Shown here piece after piece: positions 8,074-33,102 of a stretch of 47,112 bases of DNA. The notes beneath the pieces were generated by a model. The model saw only the letters and a list, made by a program, of their open reading frames with translations, did not search any database and was not told the DNA's origin. The DNA comes from Bacteriovoracaceae bacterium (GTDB taxonomy: Bacteria > Bdellovibrionota > Bacteriovoracia > Bacteriovoracales > Bacteriovoracaceae), in NCBI GenBank assembly GCA_947448495.1, contig CANFNX010000002.1, positions 1-47,112 of the forward strand, given 5' to 3'. How positions within the stretch are numbered: position 1 is the stretch's first letter; each line of letters starts with the position of its first letter. The position numbers were made by a program, and so were the translations under genes.

Positions 8074-8192
8074 AATAAAGTCTTACATTTTGACACCCCC
8101 TACTTAACCTGTTGAAAACAATAGATTCATCCCGAGTCTAAAATTTGACACCATTACTCAGTCTTAGTAAGTTGATAGCATCTGGAGGATCT

Positions 8193-9707
8193 ATGGATGA
8201 TATGAACTTTCTTCATCAAACCTTTGATGGTGCCGAAGCCGCTAATTTCCCTCCCATTGTCATTGTTGAGGATGACAAGCTTCTGGGAATGAGCTTAAAG
8301 AAATACCTCGAATACACTCTAAAATTAAAAGTTCTCCTCTATGCTAATGCTGAAGACTGTTTGATGGAGTTTGCTAAAAATCATCCAACAGAAAAACCTT
8401 TCTGCCTGATTTCAGATATCAGTTTGGGTCAGGGCTCAGATGGTCTGTTCCTCATAGACCTCCTCAAAGAGAAGGGATTTGAGTTCGTCTCGATTGTCAT
8501 GACGGGATTTGCTAGTATTGAGACCGCCATCGCTGCCACAAAAAAAGGTGTTTTTCATTACCTCACCAAACCTTTTGAGCCTGAAAATCTCAAAATGCTT
8601 GTGATTCAGGCCCTGCAGGCCAAATTACCAAGCCACTTACCAAAAGAAATTTTGAATGAGGGGCAAGGTATTTTTGCAGACCAATCTCGCTCGAGAAATC
8701 CTTCAAAACTCAAAATTGATCGCCCGACAGTGGAAGATACTTTTGAAGGCATGATTGGCCGCTCAAAGGCGATGAGAGATGTCTTCGATCGCATCAGTAA
8801 GGTGGCCAAGAGCGATTCGACGATTCTTATCATGGGGCCATCAGGGACAGGTAAGGAGCTCGTTGCATCAGCTATTCATAAACTGTCTCATCGTCATCTA
8901 AGAAATAGAATCTCCGTTAATTGCGGAGCCATTCCAAGTGAACTTCTGGAAAGTGAGCTTTTTGGGCACATGAAGGGTGCTTTTACAGGTGCCATTTCTA
9001 ATCGCAAAGGGCGCTTTGAACTTGCTGAAGGTGGAACAATTTTCTTGGATGAGATTGGTGATATGCCAATGCTTCTTCAGGTGAAACTCCTTCGCGTTCT
9101 TCAGGAAAGGCAAATCGAGCCAGTAGGTTCGACAGAGCTTTTACCTATTGATGTGCGTGTGATTGCAGCTACTCACCGTGATCTGGATAAAGCCGTTCAG
9201 GAAGGAAAATTCCGCGAAGACCTTTTCTATCGCTTAAATGTGATTCCTATACGTATGCCGGCCCTAAAAGAGCGACGTGAAGATATTCCACTTTTGATTT
9301 CTCACTTCTTAGATCGTTTTGTTTCAGCAGATCGATCGAACGAAATTAGTTTTGCTCCACTCACAATGGATCTTTTGATGGGCTATGATTGGCCAGGAAA
9401 CGTTCGTGAGTTAGAAAACGTCATTGAGCGATTGGTTATTCTTCGAGGTGGAAATGAAATCCTTCCTGAGGATCTTCCGGCCAAAATTTTCCGCTCAAAT
9501 CCTCTCGCGACTCAAACTTATAAAACACTCTTTGAACTTCCTGAAGTCGGAGTTGATCTTAAGCAGATCTTATCTGATATTGAAGATTCTTTGATCGTTC
9601 AGGCGATGAATCGAACAGGTGGAAATAAGAATCAAGCTTCAAAGCTTCTGACTCTTAACCGGACAACATTGATCGAAAAAATGAAAAAGAAAAATTTAGA
9701 AATGTAA
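8193..9707 (+). CDS. NtrC-family sigma54-dependent response regulator
   Basis: 504 residues from the ATG at 8193, which has GGAGG just upstream; the frame stays open from 8145 but that extension lacks a ribosome site. The receiver domain (about 20-140) has the acidic pair EDD, phospho-acceptor Asp75 (ISDIS), VMTG and LTKPF. The AAA+ domain has Walker A GPSGTGKE, the sigma54-contact loop GAFTGA, Walker [12 protein letters not shown] and the arginine-finger region REDLFYRL. The C-terminus is a Fis-type helix-turn-helix ([18 protein letters not shown]). It should activate sigma54 promoters after phosphorylation. No partner kinase is adjacent. Contrast the degenerate relative at 18741-19682. Confidence 0.95.
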
Positions 9708-10295: not shown

Positions 10296-11446
10296 AAATG
10301 TGTCTGGAGTAAGTACATCCATGAATCTTTCATAGATGAGTTTTTAATAAAATTACGAGTGTCATAAATGTCTGCACGAAGTTCTAATCGATGGATAGGA
10401 AAATACTGAAGACCTGGCCCCCAGCGAACAGTGTAGTCAGATTGATCGATATCATTTTTGAGATACTCAATATTCGCAAATGCATAAAAACCTCTGGCGG
10501 GTCTGAGATAAGTTTGCAAAAGACCATAGCGGGCAGTGGTTGAAGGAGTATTGTCCTGAGGCTTTTTTTGAGTTTGTCCTAATTCGGCTAAAAGGGCAGA
10601 ACCTTCTTTTAAATTAAAACGTCCATGAACGGCATAAGAAGTGAGTTGAACAAAATCATTTCTGGAATTTAAGAAAGAAGCGCCCACTCGATGGAGATTG
10701 AACACAGTTTTTTCCACCATGGCACTGCCGCCCTTCATCCGATAGGCGGGATCCTGATAATAATTGCCAATAAATCCATGGACCCCACCTTCCCAATCTC
10801 CTTTGAGAAAATGTCCGGCTACACCATAGACCTGATCATTCTGAGTGATCTGAGGATTCGTGCGGCTAAAAGCGATGTGTTCAATCACTCTAAGTCCGTA
10901 GACCTTATCCATTAAACCAGCATACACGCCGACACTCGAATTATAACGATAACCGATATAGAGGTTTCGGCTGCGATACTTTTGATCACTTTCACCTGGA
11001 TCAAGTTGAGCGGGTAGAGGAACCTTTCCATAATCTGCGGCAAAGATGAATTTATCATTCTGACCGAACTTGAGCGCCAGCCTTGCATCCATTTGCATGT
11101 TAATCCATTCTTTTTCTTCTCTCGACTGAGACCCTGGATTGGTCACTAATGAGAATCCACGATAATTGAGCTGGGTGCGAACCCACTTTTGCTTGGGTTT
11201 TCTAAAAAGAAAACCTGATGTTTCTGAAATTTTTTCTTCACTCCAGCTTTTTGGATAAAAAGCATTACTTGAAATGGCAGTGGCCGAAACCGCACGTCCA
11301 TAATCAGTTAATTGACCATTTCCAAAAGGGTTAAAGTGGCAGTTCACACAGGAGGTGTAGCCATGCCCGATAAACTGAGCATAGCCCCAGCTAAAAGTGC
11401 TGAATAAAAAAGTAGAAAGAATGATGATCATTTTCATGCGGTTCAC
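10286..11446 (-). CDS. Outer-membrane beta-barrel protein with an N-terminal c-type haem motif
   Basis: 386 residues from a GTG, or 383 from the ATG at 11437, which opens the signal peptide MKMIIILSTFLFSTFSWG. Soon after cleavage there is a single CVNCH haem-attachment motif (Cys33, Cys36, His37) in GHGYTSCVNCHFNPFGNG. The remaining 340 residues are rich in aromatics and alternating polar residues (YIGYRYNSSVGVYAG and similar), as in a porin-like barrel, ending QTHLWL. I recognise the combination as a barrel with a haem plug but cannot name a family. It lies between a di-haem lipoprotein gene (76-base gap) and a small OM protein gene (overlap). Inference: electron transfer across, or sensing at, the outer membrane. 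Confidence 0.72.
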   Translation of the reverse strand: MNRMKMIIILSTFLFSTFSWGYAQFIGHGYTSCVNCHFNPFGNGQLTDYGRAVSATAISSNAFYPKSWSEEKISETSGFLFRKPKQKWVRTQLNYRGFSLVTNPGSQSREEKEWINMQMDARLALKFGQNDKFIFAADYGKVPLPAQLDPGESDQKYRSRNLYIGYRYNSSVGVYAGLMDKVYGLRVIEHIAFSRTNPQITQNDQVYGVAGHFLKGDWEGGVHGFIGNYYQDPAYRMKGGSAMVEKTVFNLHRVGASFLNSRNDFVQLTSYAVHGRFNLKEGSALLAELGQTQKKPQDNTPSTTARYGLLQTYLRPARGFYAFANIEYLKNDIDQSDYTVRWGPGLQYFPIHRLELRADIYDTRNFIKNSSMKDSWMYLLQTHLWL

Positions 11447-11522
11447 TTTGATTAAAAGACCCGCAGTGAAAATGAATGAAGATTAAATCTTTGTCGAGAC
11501 GCCGCTCAAAAAGCACTCTGAG

Positions 11523-12164
11523 TTAGCGTGCGGCGAAATCTTTAATATATTGAAGCACAAGTTCTTCATTTGTAGTTGAAACAGTTGACCCGCTCGGTGG
11601 CATGGATCCACTCTGGATTTCAGTATAAAAGAGACTCTGTTCTGGATTGGTTTTATTAATCCATTTGGCAAGTTGGGTCTCGGTACTGAAGCTATGACAG
11701 TTTAAACATTTATAAGGAGTTAAGACGGCAGCTTTAATTTGAGCAAAAGATATTCCATTCGCAGTTGTGGGGACAGGATTCGATGATGCTGGAATGGATG
11801 CTGTGGGTGTGCTCACCATCTGTTCAATATACATTTTAATCATTTCTAAAGATTTTGTATCGAGAGGCGCCTGGTTCTTAGGCATAGAGCCATTTTCAAC
11901 GGTGGTAAAAAAAAGACTCGCTTGTGGATTGCCTGGGGTAATCCAATTTTTTAAATTACTTTCCGTTCCTACACTGCTGTGACAACTCAAGCAGTGAGGA
12001 GTCAGGATGCTTGATTTGATTTGTGAAAATGAAATGGGTTGATTCGGATCAAGAGCAGATTGGGATGTGTCGATGGTGCCAAATTTTAAATCAGAGGCAG
12101 ATGGCTGACAACCCATGAAAAGTAATAAGAGAGAAATAGTAACGATAGATGTTTTGTTTTTCAT
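11523..12164 (-). CDS. Di-haem c-type cytochrome lipoprotein with duplicated haem domain
   Basis: 213 residues. The signal peptide ends in a probable lipobox (FMGC, Cys19). Two haem domains of about 65 residues are tandem copies. Copy 1 has ISFSQIKSSIL, CLSCH (58-62) and GSMP (Met94); copy 2 has ISFAQIKAAVL, CLNCH (153-157) and GSMP (Met188). A Ser/Pro/Thr linker (about 118-137) joins them. The Met of GSMP, 30-odd residues after each CxxCH, is the plausible sixth iron ligand. The product should carry two haems at a membrane surface. It is first in an operon with the haem beta-barrel gene. Confidence 0.82.
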   Translation of the reverse strand: MKNKTSIVTISLLLLFMGCQPSASDLKFGTIDTSQSALDPNQPISFSQIKSSILTPHCLSCHSSVGTESNLKNWITPGNPQASLFFTTVENGSMPKNQAPLDTKSLEMIKMYIEQMVSTPTASIPASSNPVPTTANGISFAQIKAAVLTPYKCLNCHSFSTETQLAKWINKTNPEQSLFYTEIQSGSMPPSGSTVSTTNEELVLQYIKDFAAR

Positions 12165-12321
12165 ATCCCGATACTAAAGCAGAAGTAAAATTGATTTCAA
12201 GTTAATATCAAAGGATCAAAATTGTTTTTGTGACTGATAAAAGTAGTTCTCTCTCATGAGTTTGCCATTTAAGATTGTTTTCATTAAGGTGAACACCTCA
12301 AACTTAGGAAGAGGAGTTTTT

Positions 12322-12810
12322 ATGAAATGGACGTCGTTATTATTTTTGCTATCAGTTTTTTCATGGCAGGCCTATGCGGAAAATAAACTGGTACTAAATG
12401 TCCAGCTTAATCCCGCTGGATCTTTTCAGGCATTAAGTGAAAACATTGAAGGTGATTTAATAAAAAAACAGGGAGTGCTCAGTGCAGAAAAGTTAGTAGT
12501 TAAAATTGAAACATTAAAAACGGGAATAGATCTTAGGGATGAGCATCTTTGGAAACACATGAGTGCTGCTAAATATAAGCAAGCCTTCCTCACCCAGTTA
12601 ATTGGTAAGGATGGGGTTGCTAAGGCGATACTGGAAGTGGCAGGAGTAAAAAGACCAGTGCAAATAAAATTCCAGGATGACGGTAAGAAAATCAATGGAA
12701 CTTTTAAAGTCTCCGCACATGATTTCAAATTGCCGGAAGCCGAATATATGGGAATTGGTGTTGATGATGAGGTCGTGGCAGAAGTCAGTATGGTTTATAA
12801 GCAACCATAG
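12322..12810 (+). CDS. YceI-like periplasmic protein
   Basis: 162 residues from the ATG at 12322, with AGAGGAG upstream; the frame from 12256 has no such site. The signal peptide is MKWTSLLFLLSVFSWQAYA. The mature protein looks like a YceI lipocalin-like barrel: an opening strand with LNPAGSFQA, the LKTGIDLRDEHL segment typical of the family, and a late DFKLPEAEYMGIGVDDEV block. YceI proteins bind isoprenoid-like lipids in the periplasm. The match is by eye and moderate. It is transcribed divergently from the cytochrome operon and is monocistronic. Confidence 0.62.
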   Translation: MKWTSLLFLLSVFSWQAYAENKLVLNVQLNPAGSFQALSENIEGDLIKKQGVLSAEKLVVKIETLKTGIDLRDEHLWKHMSAAKYKQAFLTQLIGKDGVAKAILEVAGVKRPVQIKFQDDGKKINGTFKVSAHDFKLPEAEYMGIGVDDEVVAEVSMVYKQP

Positions 12811-15838: not shown

Positions 15839-16021
15839 AACTTTGTAAATAATTGTAATCGCAATTCTGTCAAAAGAGATGTCAAAGTCTCGACAGGACT
15901 TTTTTGCCGATAGGTAAAATATGTCTTCTCCAAAACTAAATACCAGATACAATGATTTTTAAGTAGGTAAAAATGGCCGCATGAAGTGGCCTCCTACAGT
16001 AAAGACAGGAAGTCTTCACGA

Positions 16022-18709
16022 ATGAAAAGATTGTCTAAAATCATAATGACAGTTCTTATTGCAGTCCTCTTGCAATCGTCCTTATCATTCGCTGATATTT
16101 TTAATCAAGAAACATTCAAGACCCATCTTCGTTGGAACCTCACTGTTCCAAGAGATCAGTTTTATATCCTCAAAAAAGATGGGGTTCTTAATATAGAGAC
16201 GGTGAATCTTGAATTATTTGAAAACCTCTCTGCCGAAATCGCTAAGATTGCTCCTAGCTCGCAATACATGCAAAAAGTATCTTATTCAAAAGATAACTTT
16301 CCTGCTACACCTGCCACCATATCCATTAAGTTAGCTGACCCTTCAGTTGAATTGTTTTCTTTTTATCGAGAAGCAGACAAAAAATATATCTTAGATTTTT
16401 GGATTAACTCTGATCTTGTCGTTGAAAAGCCGACCACATTCAAAAAGCCACTCGCGCTGCCAGTGGCAGCGCCCGCTCCTGTAATGGCAAAGAAAATTCT
16501 TCCGGCCAATCCGTTGCTCGCTAAGAAAAGCAAAATCTTACCAGTCCTAGAGGTGACCAAAGAGGAAGTGGATACAAAACTACCTAACCCTGGATTTCGC
16601 GACTTTCGCTATGGTGCAAGTTTAATTTGGGATTATCAGCCCATGATCCCACAATTAGAAAAAGATATTAACTTAGCTTCAAAAATTCCTGATTCACTTT
16701 ACCCCATTCAAGATCGCGAATCTATTGATGACCCTAAAGAAGCTCACATGCAGCTTTCGATAAATTTTTATCGTGAAGTGAAATGGGGCTTAATGAATAA
16801 ATCAATCACTCTCTATGAAAAGAAGTATGGTCGTGACAGTAACTTCATTATTAATGAATTTATGAAAGCGAATGCTCTTTTAAAAGATAATATCGCTAAG
16901 CCTAATCGAGGCATCACTCAGTCCGCTATGGTCATCCTATCTAACATCAAAGACTTGACTGAAAACTATGATCTGAAAGCCGCCATTTTAAGATATCTTA
17001 TTCAGTACAATGTTGATGTTCGTGATCATGTCAGAACATTAGAGCTTGCGAAGAGCCTATTTGTTGAGGCGAGAGGACAATTTGATCAAACTCTTGTGAT
17101 CCAATCTTCCTTAACTATTCTCCACGCCTTAGCAGAACTCAAGCAGGTCGAAAAAATAGAAGAGTTTTTATCGGACAAGAAACTGGCCAGTATCCTTCCT
17201 CCTCAGATGGGCCTGGCCTATCTGACCTTTGCTTTGCTATCCAAGGGGGATAGTAAAGAAGTGATAAAGCGTTATGCGACTGTTTCAAAATCACTTGCAA
17301 AACCTGTCCACCCTGCCATTCTTTACAACGTCGCCGAAAGTTTTTTTAGGCATGCAGATTATGTAAACGCAGTTGCACTTTTTGATGAATTCATTGCATC
17401 TTATTCTTATTTATTACAATCTCCCTTTGCGCGCTTGAGATTGGCCCTTTGTTATGAGCTCATGGATAAAGATGCTTCAGAGAATTTAGTGCTTTACAAA
17501 AATGCGATTGATCGTTCAACTGATCCGGCTGCCCGTTATGAAGCCAAAATCCGTTATGTCGCCTTCAGAATGACAAGAAAAATTAATCCCTCAGAGGAAG
17601 ATAAGGATTCGGAGGTTTTTCTTGAGCAATCTCCCGACGAGTCTAAAGTTCTCAGTTTTGAACTTAAAAAAATCCTTTGGCTTGTTCGTTTAAGAATGTT
17701 CATTGCTTCAAAGGAATATGATAAAGCACTCGCTTATTTGACTTCCGTTCCGCTTGATTCATTAAGACCGGCCGAGAGACGTGTTTTTGAAGGTGATGGA
17801 GCTGAGATTGTCTATGGTCTGATTCAGGATGCCTTCTTGAAAGAAGATTACGCGAAAGTAGTTAAGATGTGGGAAGTTTTTAAATCAAAATATGAGACTA
17901 AAGTCGCCCGTAATTTATATTTGAATTTTGTTGTGTGTAATTCTTTCATTAAGCTTGGTCTTTATAAGAGTTACGACCGTGCTTTAGAGAGTTTTAAAGC
18001 TGTTGAAGGTGAAGAGCCTCGTGTTTTTCCTATCTGGGTAGATCGTATCAAAACCAAGAATTTAAGTGAGATGGTGGAAGAATTGAGTCTCATTCGCTTG
18101 GTGGCAGATGGGGACTGGCAAGGGGCAAGTGACAAGCTGGCCTCATATCCGGTGTCACTACGGGACTCGATGAACTATCCCTTTTATCGAGGTTTAGTGA
18201 ATTTTCATCTCAAAAACTACACCGAAGCCGTGGTAGAATTCGAAAAAGTTCTTGTCGGTCAAGACAAGGCCAACCCCCTAACTCCGAGGCAAACTGCTGA
18301 TCTATTAATGAGTTATGTTGAGTCTCTGTATCAATTAAAAGATCAAGAACGCTTTAAAACAGTGGTCCGCGCTCTCAGTGAGGATATCAACTCCTCAAAG
18401 TCGGCACAGATCTTGAATGTGTCCGAGCGAGTTAAGTATCTCCTTATCGAGTCTTTGGTGGGAGAGGACAATGCCAACTGGGCGGAGATTGAAACGATGA
18501 CAAAAGAATTTAGAGAAAAATTTCAAAAATCTCCTTACAATTCGCGAATTGGTTACCTTTACGGGTTATCATTAATAAAGAACTCGCGAATTGCTGAAGG
18601 GAAGGAAGTCCTTAGCATTTTGACGAAAGATGAAAAGGTACCTCTTCATATTAAAGAAATGTGTAGAAGTGAATTGGCAACTTTAGAATTAGTAGAAAAG
18701 AAATTATAA
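16022..18709 (+). CDS. Large secreted repeat (TPR-like) protein upstream of the flagellar genes
   Basis: 895 residues from the ATG at 16022, preceded by AGGAAG nine bases upstream; the frame also stays open from a GTG at 15986. The signal peptide is MKRLSKIIMTVLIAVLLQSS followed by LSFA. An Ala/Pro/Lys-rich linker (about 145-185) separates an N-terminal domain from a long helical part. That part contains TPR-like units, for instance VNAVALFDEFIASYSYLLQS and YTEAVVEFEKVLVG. It is probably a periplasmic scaffold. Its stop lies 31 bases before the next gene, which leads directly into flgB, so it may be transcribed with the flagellar locus. Specific role unknown. Confidence 0.8.
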   Translation: MKRLSKIIMTVLIAVLLQSSLSFADIFNQETFKTHLRWNLTVPRDQFYILKKDGVLNIETVNLELFENLSAEIAKIAPSSQYMQKVSYSKDNFPATPATISIKLADPSVELFSFYREADKKYILDFWINSDLVVEKPTTFKKPLALPVAAPAPVMAKKILPANPLLAKKSKILPVLEVTKEEVDTKLPNPGFRDFRYGASLIWDYQPMIPQLEKDINLASKIPDSLYPIQDRESIDDPKEAHMQLSINFYREVKWGLMNKSITLYEKKYGRDSNFIINEFMKANALLKDNIAKPNRGITQSAMVILSNIKDLTENYDLKAAILRYLIQYNVDVRDHVRTLELAKSLFVEARGQFDQTLVIQSSLTILHALAELKQVEKIEEFLSDKKLASILPPQMGLAYLTFALLSKGDSKEVIKRYATVSKSLAKPVHPAILYNVAESFFRHADYVNAVALFDEFIASYSYLLQSPFARLRLALCYELMDKDASENLVLYKNAIDRSTDPAARYEAKIRYVAFRMTRKINPSEEDKDSEVFLEQSPDESKVLSFELKKILWLVRLRMFIASKEYDKALAYLTSVPLDSLRPAERRVFEGDGAEIVYGLIQDAFLKEDYAKVVKMWEVFKSKYETKVARNLYLNFVVCNSFIKLGLYKSYDRALESFKAVEGEEPRVFPIWVDRIKTKNLSEMVEELSLIRLVADGDWQGASDKLASYPVSLRDSMNYPFYRGLVNFHLKNYTEAVVEFEKVLVGQDKANPLTPRQTADLLMSYVESLYQLKDQERFKTVVRALSEDINSSKSAQILNVSERVKYLLIESLVGEDNANWAEIETMTKEFREKFQKSPYNSRIGYLYGLSLIKNSRIAEGKEVLSILTKDEKVPLHIKEMCRSELATLELVEKKL

Positions 18710-18740
18710 ACGAACCAACTAACAACGGACAGGAGGTCTA

Positions 18741-19682
18741 ATGTTATCTCAAGGTTTAAATCTCGTAGGAAATCACCCAAAGTTCAACAGCACACTTGAA
18801 ATGGCCCGCAATGTAGCCGTGACAAAAACTGCTATTCTTATCTCTGGTGAAGCCGGTTCAGGTAAGAAGGCTATCGGTGCTTACATTCACCAAAATTCTG
18901 CACGCAAAAATGCACGCCTTGAGATTGTAGATTGTTCGCAAGACTCTCAAACTGTAGAGAAAATTGTTCTTGGTTTTAGAGACGATGAGACAGGACGTTT
19001 TAATCGTGGAGTCTTAGAACTTGCCAATGGCGGTACGGTAATTTTTGCCAACATTGACGCACTGGATGATAATTTCCAAAAAAGACTATATACTATCCTT
19101 CAAGAACTTCCTGACTATGAGTTAGATGTTCGCTTAGTTGCAACAACATCTAAGAATCTTTCTAAGCTTGTTGGTGCAGGTAAATTCTCTCGTGCTCTTT
19201 ACACTTATTTCGCCGGAGCGCAGATCGATATGATTGCCCTTCGTGAGAGAGGAACTGACGTGGAATTGATTGCTCGTCATTTCATCAATGAGTACGCTAC
19301 TGAAAATTCAGCTGGCGACCTAAATCTTTGTGAAGAAGCTGCTCGTAAACTGTCTGATTATAACTGGGGTCAAAATTTGATTGAGCTACGTTCATTCATT
19401 CGTAAAACTCTCACGAATATGGAAGGCAAAACTTTGGACATTGCTGCTATCGAAAATGGCGAGCGAAAAGTTGAGATGACATCTTCTGAAGTTGATGAAG
19501 ATGGATTGAAGCTTATGTCTCTTAAAGATGCTGAGAAACTTCTTATTAAAAAAGCCCTTGTGTACACTTCTGAGAATAGAACTCAAGCCGCAAAAATTCT
19601 TGGTGTTTCTATTCGTACTCTACGTAATAAAATCAATGAGTACAGAGGTGAAGGTGCTGCTTACTTCATTAACTTAAGATAA
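18741..19682 (+). CDS. Degenerate sigma54-activator-like protein with Fis-type DNA-binding domain
   Basis: 313 residues, strong AGGAGG site. It has the AAA+ plus Fis-HTH plan of bacterial enhancer-binding proteins such as FlbD/FlrC but no receiver domain. Motifs are eroded. Walker A is GEAGSGKK (Ser/Thr replaced by Lys43). Where GAFTGA should be there is FRDDETGRFN (79-88). Walker B is GGTVIFANID (no Asp-Glu pair). The arginine-finger block is FSRALYTYF instead of FREDLYYRL. The C-terminal HTH is intact (RTQAAKILGVSIRTLRNKIN, 280-299). It probably binds DNA but neither hydrolyses ATP normally nor contacts sigma54. It sits 28 bases before flgB, so a role in flagellar gene control is likely. 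Confidence 0.85.
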   Translation: MLSQGLNLVGNHPKFNSTLEMARNVAVTKTAILISGEAGSGKKAIGAYIHQNSARKNARLEIVDCSQDSQTVEKIVLGFRDDETGRFNRGVLELANGGTVIFANIDALDDNFQKRLYTILQELPDYELDVRLVATTSKNLSKLVGAGKFSRALYTYFAGAQIDMIALRERGTDVELIARHFINEYATENSAGDLNLCEEAARKLSDYNWGQNLIELRSFIRKTLTNMEGKTLDIAAIENGERKVEMTSSEVDEDGLKLMSLKDAEKLLIKKALVYTSENRTQAAKILGVSIRTLRNKINEYRGEGAAYFINLR

Positions 19683-19710: not shown

Positions 19711-20118
19711 ATGGATGTGAATGACAAAACACTCAAAGCACTTACCACGGCGTTGAATTTCCGTGAAATGAGACAAGAGCTTATTTCATCGAACGTTGCC
19801 AACGCCAACACGCCGGGCTTTAAGGCCAAGAAGATGGATTTCGAAGAGGCTCTTGCCAGGGCCCTCGACGTGGATGGAAATATGCAAATGAATGTTTCTG
19901 ATGGACGTCATCACAATGTTGGTAATGGCGGCTTCAATAATTTAGAACCAGAAATTTACGATGACCCAAATGGTGTCGTTTCAGAAAATGGTAATACTGT
20001 TGATGTGGAATCTGAGATGGCCCGCATGGCAGAAAACAAACTGATGTACGATGCCTTGGTTCAGCTGGTCAACAAAAAGATGGGTATGATGAAATACGCC
20101 ATTAATTCTGAGAAATAA
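19711..20118 (+). CDS. flgB: Flagellar basal-body proximal rod protein FlgB
   Basis: 135 residues, usual size. The N-terminal rod motif SSNVANANTPGFKAKKMDFE and the C-terminal KLMYDALVQLVNKKMGMMKY helix are typical. Exported by the flagellar type III apparatus to build the rod with FlgC and FliE. First structural gene of the locus; flgC follows after 12 bases. Confidence 0.95.
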   Translation: MDVNDKTLKALTTALNFREMRQELISSNVANANTPGFKAKKMDFEEALARALDVDGNMQMNVSDGRHHNVGNGGFNNLEPEIYDDPNGVVSENGNTVDVESEMARMAENKLMYDALVQLVNKKMGMMKYAINSEK

Positions 20119-27685: not shown

Positions 27686-27868
27686 CCCGAACCCGTTTGG
27701 CTTAGGCAAAGGCTTTATAGTGCTTAAAATGACCATTTAAGCCCAAAAACGGCAAATATTGCCTACCCACAAAAAATAATTAAAGTATTTTTGGAAGATT
27801 CTGCCCGGCTTCATTTTATGGGCCGAGTTATGGGAGAATGTTTCGTAGGACCACTAAGGAACCAAGAA

Positions 27869-29113
27869 ATGCTTCAAGCAGTTAACAATCAACCTATCGA
27901 ACCAAAAGCTCCAGAGAGAGTTCAAGGTTCAAGAGCTGAGAAGGCGAAGATCAAAGATCTTGAGTCAGAGCTCGATGGTGCTGACTTTGCTAATGAATTA
28001 GAAGCTTCAATGGAAACTGAATCAACCGAAGCTTCTGAATCAGAAGTTAAGGCAGTTAAAGTTAATCCTGAAATGCTTCTTGAATCGCCTTCAACATTAA
28101 TTCAGCGTCCCGCTGGACAACTTGAAGGTCAACTTGAAACTCCTAATCCAAAAGTTTTTGATGCTAATTTGATTCAAGATGTTGATCAAATAATTCAACC
28201 AAAAACAACGAATGTTTCGGGAGAGCTTACAGCTGAGCAGGTGATGGAACTTGCTCAAGGCCAGGGTCTAAATCCAGAGATGGAAAGTGAAATGACCCAG
28301 GCATTGCTTAAAACTCCAAAGCTACAAATGGGAAGATCTCCTGCGATCGACTTTGCAAAAACAGAAGTTGATCCACAGCTAATGAATATGGATGATTTTG
28401 TTGCTCAAAAAAATGCAGCTGCAAAAAAATCACTGAACCATTCATCTGCCTATGGTATGCAAAATAAAGCTCAGTCCAATAAAATTGGAATGGAGCACGG
28501 ACTAAAGTCAACTCAGACTGTGAATGAACTCGGTTTGACTGATTCTTCTGCCGGCCGTTCTTCCATGAACTCTCAACAGTTTATTCTCAATTCACAAATT
28601 GATCTTGGGTCTAATGCTAAGGCCAATGAAGCCCAAGCCCCTGTGAAGACATTTAATATGTCGAATATTAAGTCTGAAAATTCAAATCAGATCATGAGCC
28701 AAATTACTGATTACGTAATCCAGGCAAAGGCTGCGAAAGAGCCAACTGTGAATATGCGTGTGAATCATGAAGAACTAGGCGTGATTGATATCACAGTTAA
28801 TAAATTGGGCACGAATCAAGATGCCATTGCCATCAATATTGGAACACATTCAGTTGATGGGAAAAATTTCTTCCAGGCCAATTCAAAAGATCTTTTCTCA
28901 CATCTGACAAACTCCGGTCTGAATGTGTCTGACTTAAAGGTGGAAACACCTTCTCAAACTGCTCGTAATGATTTCGATTTTGGAAGTCAGTCTGGGCGTG
29001 GAGGATTTGGTCAGCAGGATAAGCAATTCGGCTCTGAACAAAATCAGAGACGTCATGAGTCCGATCGTCGTCAGGAACTCTGGAATCTTTTAAGAGATAA
29101 GGATGCTGCCTAA
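27869..29113 (+). CDS. fliK: Flagellar hook-length control protein FliK
   Basis: 414 residues from the ATG at 27869, with AAGGA eight bases upstream; the frame is open from a TTG at 27791. The first 290 residues are low complexity (Glu, Gln, Ser, Ala), as expected for the disordered ruler. The C-terminal Flg_hook domain (about 300-385) contains VNMRVNHEELGVIDITVNKL and LFSHLTNSGLNVSDLKVET. FliK sets hook length and switches export specificity. It overlaps flgD by one base. Confidence 0.85.
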   Translation: MLQAVNNQPIEPKAPERVQGSRAEKAKIKDLESELDGADFANELEASMETESTEASESEVKAVKVNPEMLLESPSTLIQRPAGQLEGQLETPNPKVFDANLIQDVDQIIQPKTTNVSGELTAEQVMELAQGQGLNPEMESEMTQALLKTPKLQMGRSPAIDFAKTEVDPQLMNMDDFVAQKNAAAKKSLNHSSAYGMQNKAQSNKIGMEHGLKSTQTVNELGLTDSSAGRSSMNSQQFILNSQIDLGSNAKANEAQAPVKTFNMSNIKSENSNQIMSQITDYVIQAKAAKEPTVNMRVNHEELGVIDITVNKLGTNQDAIAINIGTHSVDGKNFFQANSKDLFSHLTNSGLNVSDLKVETPSQTARNDFDFGSQSGRGGFGQQDKQFGSEQNQRRHESDRRQELWNLLRDKDAA

Positions 29114-32039: not shown

Positions 32040-32360
32040 ATGAAAATTTTAATGATTGTTTTATTGTTTTGTTCTCTCGCCTCAGCTGAGGCGATACCCC
32101 AGCAAGGACTTTACATCTGCAAGAGCGGCAATGAAGAGAGTATTTGCGATCAAATGCTCAAAACAAATATAAAAGATGACCGGCTCATTTCAATAACAGT
32201 TGAGTACGTAGGTTACTGTGGTTCCATGGGCCCATATCAGTATAGTTGTGTTGGTCAAACCTGTGGAGATGAAGGTATAAGATTTGAGTTTAAAGATCTT
32301 AAGCATTATTCATGGGAAAACAAACAATACGGATTTAAATGTGATTTTGAAAAAAAATAA
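32040..32360 (+). CDS. Small secreted cysteine-rich protein
   Basis: 106 residues. Signal peptide MKILMIVLLFCSLASAEA. The mature part has seven Cys (YICKSG, SICDQM, GYCGSM, YSCVGQTCGDE, FKCDFEK), which predicts several disulphides. No family recognised. Its end overlaps the start of the chitosanase gene by 20 bases, so the two are probably co-translated. Confidence 0.7.
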   Translation: MKILMIVLLFCSLASAEAIPQQGLYICKSGNEESICDQMLKTNIKDDRLISITVEYVGYCGSMGPYQYSCVGQTCGDEGIRFEFKDLKHYSWENKQYGFKCDFEKK

Positions 32361-33102
32361 TTGGTTTTTATTTTTATTATCCTCGTTCATTTTGATGTCC
32401 AATGTTACCCAGGCGTCATCCCTTGAGAAAAAGGTCGATTCCATCGTCAGTATTTTTGAAAATGATACCCCTGACATTCAATATTGCTCGATCGTCGATA
32501 TCAAAGATGGCCGAGGTTACACTGCAGGAAAAGCAGGCTTTACGTCCGCCACAGGTGATCTTTTAGAGCTGTTACTTCGGTATGAGCGAATTAATGCAGA
32601 ACTTTTTAAATCTGTGATTCCCATTTTGAAACAAAGAGCAAGAGAAGAAAATGGAGATGTCACAGGATTAGAGAGCTTACCAAAGCTCTGGGCTGTGGCC
32701 TGTCAAAATCAAGATTTTCTTAAAACTCAAGATGACTTAGTTGATGAGTGGTATAAAAAACCCGCCCGCTCTGCTTTGAAAAAGTATGGGCTCAAATCAA
32801 ATTTAGCCTACCTCATTTTTTACGATACAGTTATTCAGCATGGTGATGGAAATGATCCCGATTCTTTTAACGGAATTGTGAATAAAATGGGAAGGATTCC
32901 TCAAACAGAACGTGTATTCCTTAACAACTTTTTAAGAGCAAGATTAAAGGTTTTAAAAAATCCATCGAACCGTGAGACCAGAGATGTCTGGCGGGAATCA
33001 GTGGATCGAGTTATTTCCTTGAGGAAATTACTTTCTGAGGGGCATTTCAATCTAGATGGTGCTTTTACCCTTGAGGTCTGGGGCGAGAGCTTTTCTTTTT
33101 AG
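32341..33102 (+). CDS. Secreted GH46-family chitosanase
   Basis: 253 residues from a GTG at 32341, which opens the signal peptide ILKKNNWFLFLLSSFILMSN (ending TQA); a TTG at 32347 is an alternative start. The mature protein matches the GH46 chitosanase of Streptomyces N174. The general acid is Glu40 in SIFENDTPD (Glu22 there) and the second acid is Asp56 in DIKDGRGYTAGKAGFTSATG (Asp40 there). The blocks YDTVIQHGDGNDPDSFNGI and FNLDGAFTLEVWGESF align with YDAIVMHGPGNDPTSFGGI and the C-terminal block of that enzyme. The two acids are 16 residues apart rather than 18. GH46 enzymes cut beta-1,4 bonds in glucosamine-rich polymers. Confidence 0.9.
   Translation: MILKKNNWFLFLLSSFILMSNVTQASSLEKKVDSIVSIFENDTPDIQYCSIVDIKDGRGYTAGKAGFTSATGDLLELLLRYERINAELFKSVIPILKQRAREENGDVTGLESLPKLWAVACQNQDFLKTQDDLVDEWYKKPARSALKKYGLKSNLAYLIFYDTVIQHGDGNDPDSFNGIVNKMGRIPQTERVFLNNFLRARLKVLKNPSNRETRDVWRESVDRVISLRKLLSEGHFNLDGAFTLEVWGESFSF

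Follow-up and report, generated by a model that had tools for sequence, protein, structure and literature searches.

What does a homologue of the sigma54 activators do directly in front of flgB once its AAA+ domain has lost most of its catalytic residues? The question is raised by REG, an open reading frame in the 47,112-nucleotide stretch analyzed here (the window), which belongs to a Bacteriovoracaceae draft genome; the named relatives of this genome are for the most part MAGs of Bacteriovoracaceae, Bacteriovorax, and Halobacteriovoraceae. A TPR-protein gene, REG, and flgB-flgC-fliE-fliF-fliG run in one direction with short gaps, and the 28 bp between REG and flgB (start at 19711) confirm the statement of an earlier note on this DNA that REG is encoded directly before flgB. 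The main features of the locus are as follows.

8145..9707, + strand: intact sigma54 activator with a receiver domain, given for context; its HTH is different
15986..18709, + strand: TPR-protein gene, first of the presumed operon; its start is more likely ATG 16022
18741..19682, + strand: REG (313 aa), receiver-less FlbD/FlrC-type sigma54-activator homologue with an apparently dead AAA+ domain and an intact Fis-type HTH
18846..18869, + strand: Walker A of REG, retained, GEAGSGKK (residues 36-43)
19038..19055, + strand: degenerate Walker B, VIFANI (residues 100-105), D and E gone (intact: LDEI)
19185..19214, + strand: arginine finger region, FSRALYTYFA (residues 149-158), both finger Arg gone
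19521..19643, + strand: HTH_8 domain of REG (residues 261-301), nearly invariant
19711..20118, + strand: flgB, followed by flgC, fliE, fliF, and fliG in the same direction

Pfam searches assign Sigma54_activat (78.6 bits), AAA_lid_14, and HTH_8 to REG and detect no Response_reg domain, the AAA+ match starting at residue 8. The best NCBIfam match is FlbD (NF050807 equivalog) at 156.4 bits, below the curated cut-off of 750, and the AF2 model (mean pLDDT 80.8) is closest to the FlrC AAA+ domain 4qht, with a TM score of 0.84 normalized by target length. Alignment with the intact activator of the window and with intact orthologues shows that the GAFTGA loop is deleted and that the sensor II Arg is gone (GNVREL to QNLIEL), in addition to the Walker B and finger losses listed above. 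The earlier note had already read the loss of GAFTGA, Walker B acids, and arginine fingers beside a kept HTH, and the alignment bears this out; its broader claim that every motif for ATP hydrolysis and sigma54 contact is altered holds for GAFTGA, Walker B, fingers, and sensor II but not for Walker A, which is intact. ATP hydrolysis is very unlikely in bacterial enhancer-binding proteins (bEBPs) that lack the Walker B acids, and since these acids are gone from REG, hydrolysis by REG is very unlikely too. Walker A residues E37, G39, G41, and K42 are invariant in 26/26 aligned sequences, and the first Gly is present in at least 90% of them. Intact activators have Glu directly after the Walker A Lys; the window and 28 of the 29 other flgB loci of its family (f1) have Lys or Arg instead, L115 keeping Glu. 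One place past the first finger position, an Arg is invariant in all 26 aligned REG relatives and may represent a shifted arginine finger.

REG is the only protein with an RTLRNK-type HTH among the eight best sigma54-domain matches of its genome. Two others of these, L006 (G000:C49) and L007 (G000:C16), with 501 and 654 aa, also lack GAFTGA, so that three of the eight are defective. Just 5' of the REG start lies GGACAGGAGGTC (18727-18738), where a hairpin-like ACAGGAGGT covers a ribosome-binding site, as the palindrome at 16002-16016 (below) also does; this accounts for the TGGL found ahead of Met in many REG relatives.

The earlier note called REG a paralogue. Its position just 5' of flgB and its SIRTLRNK-type HTH are instead those that define the flgB-linked FlbD-type regulator of the phylum, marking it as the in-place orthologue of an activator that other families of the phylum still have in intact form. 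In this lineage, the receiver-less flagellar regulator of the FlbD/FlrC type would be REG, converted at its original locus; taken whole, as an ATPase-dead regulator of sigma70-type promoters, this reading has a little better than an even chance.

Is the degeneration an accident of one genome? Conservation across relatives was the check that the earlier note proposed, and REG of the window, like its counterparts at 29/29 other f1 flgB loci, has lost each of the four features (GAFTGA, Walker B, fingers, and sensor II). Of 23 genomes from the same genus, 22 have a close REG relative, and in the remaining one, G017, a contig break falls within the TPR gene. Scanning the named genomes yielded 46 loci, 45 of them REG relatives with 52-93% identity (including two genes each split over two contigs), the 46th, L084, being a paralogous full activator. 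FlgB is encoded downstream in 39 of the 45; four of the other six contigs end in or just past REG, and L078 and L080 carry other genes there. Median dN/dS is 0.088 for the AAA+ domain (54 pairs) and 0.054 for the HTH (33 pairs), with dS near 1, and the flgB control, at 0.028 (6 pairs), is more constrained than REG. The HTH and the C-terminal tail are nearly invariant across relatives. By these measures, the REG gene is under purifying selection, and its losses are the product of neither chance nor recent decay. Loss of rpoN or fliA was considered as a cause of the decay of REG and rejected, both genes being present in 38/38 genomes tested.

To place REG within the phylum, we surveyed its flgB loci. 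FlgB was found in 126 of 144 genomes, 22 of which (the window's own included) lie outside the survey table, and 104 flgB loci were examined, 100 plus 4 from another retrieval. Ten lack a usable neighbor (L114, L146, L156, L159, L187, L192, L195, L196, L197, and L198). The other 94 have a bEBP-type gene upstream on the same strand, at most 316 bp from flgB except at two f20 loci (1.2 and 2.2 kb), and the HTH core RTLRNK (RTLRHK in f9) is present in 94/94 rows. These rows comprise 29 from f1, 45 intact, 4 partly altered, 9 from f12, and 7 from f6, related loci not being independent counts. Regulators intact in all four features occur in f3 (8), f8 (17), f9 (5), f11 (7), f14, f15, f18 (2), f19, f21 (2), and f22, those of f9 having a longer N terminus; the partly altered ones are from f20 (twice), f23, and one f8 locus. 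All nine evaluable f12 regulators lack GAFTGA and the Walker B Asp, while eight keep the Glu, eight both fingers, and nine the sensor II Arg; residual activity may be less excluded here than in f1. In f6, seven genes at nine loci have open frames of 155-299 residues; all seven have lost GAFTGA and the DE pair, two keep the sensor II Arg, and one keeps both fingers. One f6 genome has a flgB match containing an in-frame TAA (G106:C1:2660155-2660535).

How many times was the activator converted? In the rpoB tree, where G154 on a branch of length 10 was disregarded, f6 is nested among f11, f21, f23, f22, f14, and f18, and f12 among f8, f15, and f19; f1 branches separately, in a part of the backbone with poor resolution. 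The REG gene tree places f12 firmly with f20, f8, f15, and f19, and leaves both f1 and f6 on long branches close to the midpoint root. By the gene tree, f12 decayed separately from f1. The gene tree by itself points to two losses, with the third coming from the rpoB tree; three independent conversions, in f1, f12, and f6, are probable.

If the DNA-reading helix has been preserved, what does it read? A box matrix was trained on 27 REG-flgB gaps longer than 60 bp from f3, f8, f15, and f19, without any f1 sequence; 26 of these gaps belong to an intact regulator and one (L172) to a regulator with an altered GAFTGA. The gaps contain a palindromic 13-mer of the GGCA-N5-TGCC type, consensus GGcAaaattTgCC, with a best box of 9.4-18.4 bits in 27/27 gaps and a motif log-likelihood of 151 versus 27-41 in 12 shuffles. 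It resembles the published FlbD-type box (PMC3333781), where the binding motif of DVU1063, an FlbD homologue, is GGCAxxxxTGCC and that of Caulobacter FlbD is CCCGGCAxxxxxTGCCGGG. In 8/8 gaps of f3, 46-77 bp separate the beginning of the best box from that of a canonical sigma54 site downstream, and in f8 a sigma54-like site with TTGA for TTGC occurs in 8/18 gaps (a loose pattern, without shuffle control). Sigma54 sites also precede flgB at loci of f2, f7, f17, f20, and f24. The f12 box, judged by eye at eight loci, lies between -35- and -10-like hexamers. At none of the 9 f6 loci did the region upstream of flgB (6-kb stretches) yield a box scoring 12 bits or more, so that for f6 the sequences indicate decay of the protein alone.

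In the window, the two best matches to the matrix lie before fliK, at 27793 and 27751, above the maxima of 20 mononucleotide shuffles, and weaker ones precede the TPR gene.

15896..15908, + strand: distal box of the TPR-REG-flgB operon, GGACTTTTTTGCC, weak, 8.1 bits
15913..15925, + strand: proximal box of the TPR operon, GGTAAAATATGTC, weak (the identical 13-mer scores 6.6 bits in L055), centered at about -41
15948..15953, + strand: predicted sigma70-type -10, TACAAT, 22 bp past the proximal TPR box
27751..27763, + strand: distal box of fliK-flgD-flgE, GGCAAATATTGCC, 17.5 bits
27793..27805, + strand: proximal box of fliK, GGAAGATTCTGCC, 18.5 bits, 42 bp from the distal box
27829..27839, + strand: predicted extended -10 of fliK, TATGGGAGAAT, 23 bp past the proximal box (hexamer at 28 bp)
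27869..29113, + strand: fliK, its start reassigned from TTG 27791 to ATG 27869

The TTG start given by the ORF caller for fliK is probably wrong, and the start at ATG 27869 places both boxes outside the gene. A box of at least 12 bits precedes fliK in 23/23 same-family loci with a FliK match. It is intergenic in the window and in 10 of the 23; in the other 13, both box and -10 extend into the 3' end of the upstream gene, where coding constraint could conserve them. The pattern T(A/G)TGnnAnAAT occurs exactly 23 bp past the fliK box, and at no other offset, in 18/25 rows (10/11 intergenic ones). At the TPR promoter, where the admitted boxes include weak ones (threshold of only 5 bits), a box is followed after 22 bp by TANAMT in 28/37 loci; among the nine misses, the hexamer is shifted to 21 or 23 bp in three, but not in the other six. 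The second TPR box, 17 bp upstream start to start, gives a matching peak at 39 bp, the next-highest count being 11 (at 6 bp). An unconserved site at 15966 scores 7.4 bits, comparable to the weak TPR boxes of the window, whose proximal one is credible by its position in relatives only. At fliL, a box is followed after 41 bp by TATAAT in 4/4 family genomes from four genera. Predicted boxes stand at a fixed distance from a sigma70-type -10 before TPR-REG-flgB, fliK-flgD-flgE, and fliL-fliM, the sigma70 assignment being made from hexamers read off the sequence. The spacing between box and promoter is typically rigid where activators or repressors work with sigma70, but not for sigma54 enhancers.

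Several further elements were observed in the window. A palindrome, AAGACAGGAAGTCTT (16002-16016), covers the ribosome-binding site of the TPR-REG-flgB operon; its ACA(N)GGANGT core is present at this site in 35/37 related loci, with stems of 2-7 bp, some of them changed on both sides (AAGAC/GTCTT, GAAAC/GTTTC), and the palindrome resembles a CsrA site. Downstream of the hook operon, 32284-33102 encodes a glycosyl hydrolase of family 46, and Rfam gave no match in the window at gathering scores.

Genome-wide, the strict box pattern shows little enrichment, with 16 sites versus 8 for the control in the window's own genome, 15 versus 12 in G016, and 7 versus 8 and 6 versus 2 in two aflagellate genomes; among the 15 strict sites of G016, the fliK site alone matched proteins beside the sites of the own genome. 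One strict box (L251, 1501-1513) lies between divergent genes, one of which encodes a GYF_2-PilZ protein, a possible c-di-GMP link of the REG regulon. Two genomes of the same family, G090 and G118 (99 and 98% complete), keep REG, and no FlgB or FlhA match was found in either. Because of this, the regulator appears to outlive the flagellum. The REG locus of G090 (L080, at the same contig coordinates) consists of a short TPR gene preceded by a box with TAAAAT at 22 bp, then REG, and 3' of it a 497-aa protein (10947-12440) with a weak YscJ_FliF match (23.5 bits versus a cut-off of 24.4), putatively an MS-ring protein, remnant or reused.

How, then, could REG act? We slightly favor the view that it is an ATPase-dead FlbD regulating sigma70-type flagellar promoters, more probably as an activator. 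REG would bind the predicted boxes, perhaps as tandem dimers, contact RNA polymerase without ATP hydrolysis, and activate from class II/I-like positions, at about -41 (TPR), -47 (fliK), and -60 (fliL), hexamers being counted as -12 to -7. It would also autoregulate positively, and its Walker A pocket may take ATP or another nucleotide as ligand, not fuel. Activation is favored because the TPR promoter shows, by eye, no good -35 hexamer at normal spacing and its box is centered near -41. A mainly repressing (or dual) REG, which would keep RNA polymerase from transcribing the REG operon before assembly advances, much as Caulobacter FlbD does at early genes, is the main rival, more so in f12, and we consider it rather unlikely. 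It agrees with the proximal TPR box covering the -35 region and with the f12 box that lies, by eye, inside the core promoter; FlbD represses early genes via ftr sites (PMC3930126), and the GAFTGA-less Caulobacter NtrC both activates and represses (PMC10274813). However, a promoter without a normally spaced -35 is as expected if it depends on an activator, and the boxes at fliL and fliK stand clear of the -10. The earlier note took REG for an activator turned DNA-binding co-regulator or repressor of flagellar genes; a former activator turned DNA-binding regulator is what the sequence suggests, and predicted operators do precede flagellar operons, but these fixed promoter-proximal positions appear to be no less compatible with activation of sigma70 promoters than with repression.

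Partnership with a full activator, which that note also raised (8193-9707 there), would make REG a helper subunit or co-activator at sigma54 promoters, through mixed rings or shared enhancers, for example with the protein at 8145-9707. The intact activator is indeed a steady neighbor: it lies 1.1-7.3 kb before REG in 30/45 related loci (9 kb in the window) and is present in 28/28 related loci with at least 9.5 kb before REG. The AAA+ fold and Walker A are retained, and the sigma54 gene is present in all 38 genomes tested. Sigma54 is probably used elsewhere in the genome, where its pattern (at most 1 mismatch) has 98 sites versus 40 for a backward control, and in 6/29 f1 loci (L101, L102, L104, L107, L117, and L128) the TPR gene contains, within 400 bp of REG, a sigma54-like site scoring 13-14 of 15; sigma54 may still serve REG-flgB at these loci, which speaks against a clean switch to sigma70. 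Against the partnership, the window shows no sigma54 signal above chance, with 16 promoter matches (at most 2 mismatches) versus 20.6 expected, and those near the operons, at 16059, 18402, and 27976, fall inside the TPR gene and fliK. Apart from proximity, no link between the two proteins was found; their HTHs differ (NRTTLIEK versus SIRTLRNK), and the finger and Walker B residues of the ring interface are gone from REG, leaving this alternative quite improbable. A gene decaying without remaining function, as the many missing catalytic residues might indicate, is scarcely credible given open frames, dN/dS of 0.05-0.09, the nearly invariant HTH and C-terminal tail, and the retention of REG in G090 and G118, where neither FlgB nor FlhA was matched.

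Beyond the window, the survey leads us to propose, with slightly less than even confidence, that at one flagellar locus an ATP-driven sigma54 activator became, at least three times independently (f1, f12, and f6), a protein with a broken AAA+ domain that regulates sigma70-type promoters and retains its DNA-reading helix, that the f1 and f12 boxes moved from sigma54 enhancer distance to fixed core-promoter positions, and that aflagellate descendants keep the regulator, the box, and a remnant operon. A change of sigma factor together with loss of ATP dependence in a transcription factor is rarely visible as a series; here, the DNA-reading helix is kept at a single locus through stages that range from an intact protein through partial to full decay. 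Such a series makes the order of steps, promoter swap or ATPase loss first, testable. If true, the proposal also names a flagellar regulator for the Bacteriovoracaceae, relatives of predatory bacteria; a Bdellovibrio transcription study stresses FliA (PMC3627812).

How does REG compare with known systems? Among the literature matches listed, as far as their available text goes, none reports REG or a repeated conversion of a flgB-linked activator with a preserved, moved box. Caulobacter FlbD and Desulfovibrio DVU1063 share with REG the HTH type and, as predicted for REG, the GGCA-N-TGCC box (PMC3333781) and flagellar targets; Caulobacter FlbD has GAFTGA (PMC10274813) and a receiver-like domain, and REG has neither. 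FlrC of Vibrio cholerae, the best structural match of the REG AAA+ model (4qht), shares the flagellar role, but its AAA+ domain is a sigma54 activator domain, whereas that of REG is without the catalytic residues. NtrC of Caulobacter and Rhodobacter capsulatus has the GAFTGA loop deleted like REG, with sigma70 promoters reported or inferred; in these proteins, the phosphorylation site matters and, for Caulobacter NtrC, ATP binding and hydrolysis are reported necessary (PMC10274813). In contrast, REG has no receiver, and its losses extend to Walker B, fingers, and sensor II. TyrR, DhaR, HupR, and VpsR are GAFTGA-defective homologues without sigma54 contact, like REG, and the first three are reported to be sigma70 dependent (PMC3162934); they have other targets, whereas with REG the loss is repeated in place, at one flagellar locus, across the phylum. 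Activators that lack GAFTGA and act with sigma70 are already known, and it is the recurrent in-place conversion of a flagellar one that looks new.
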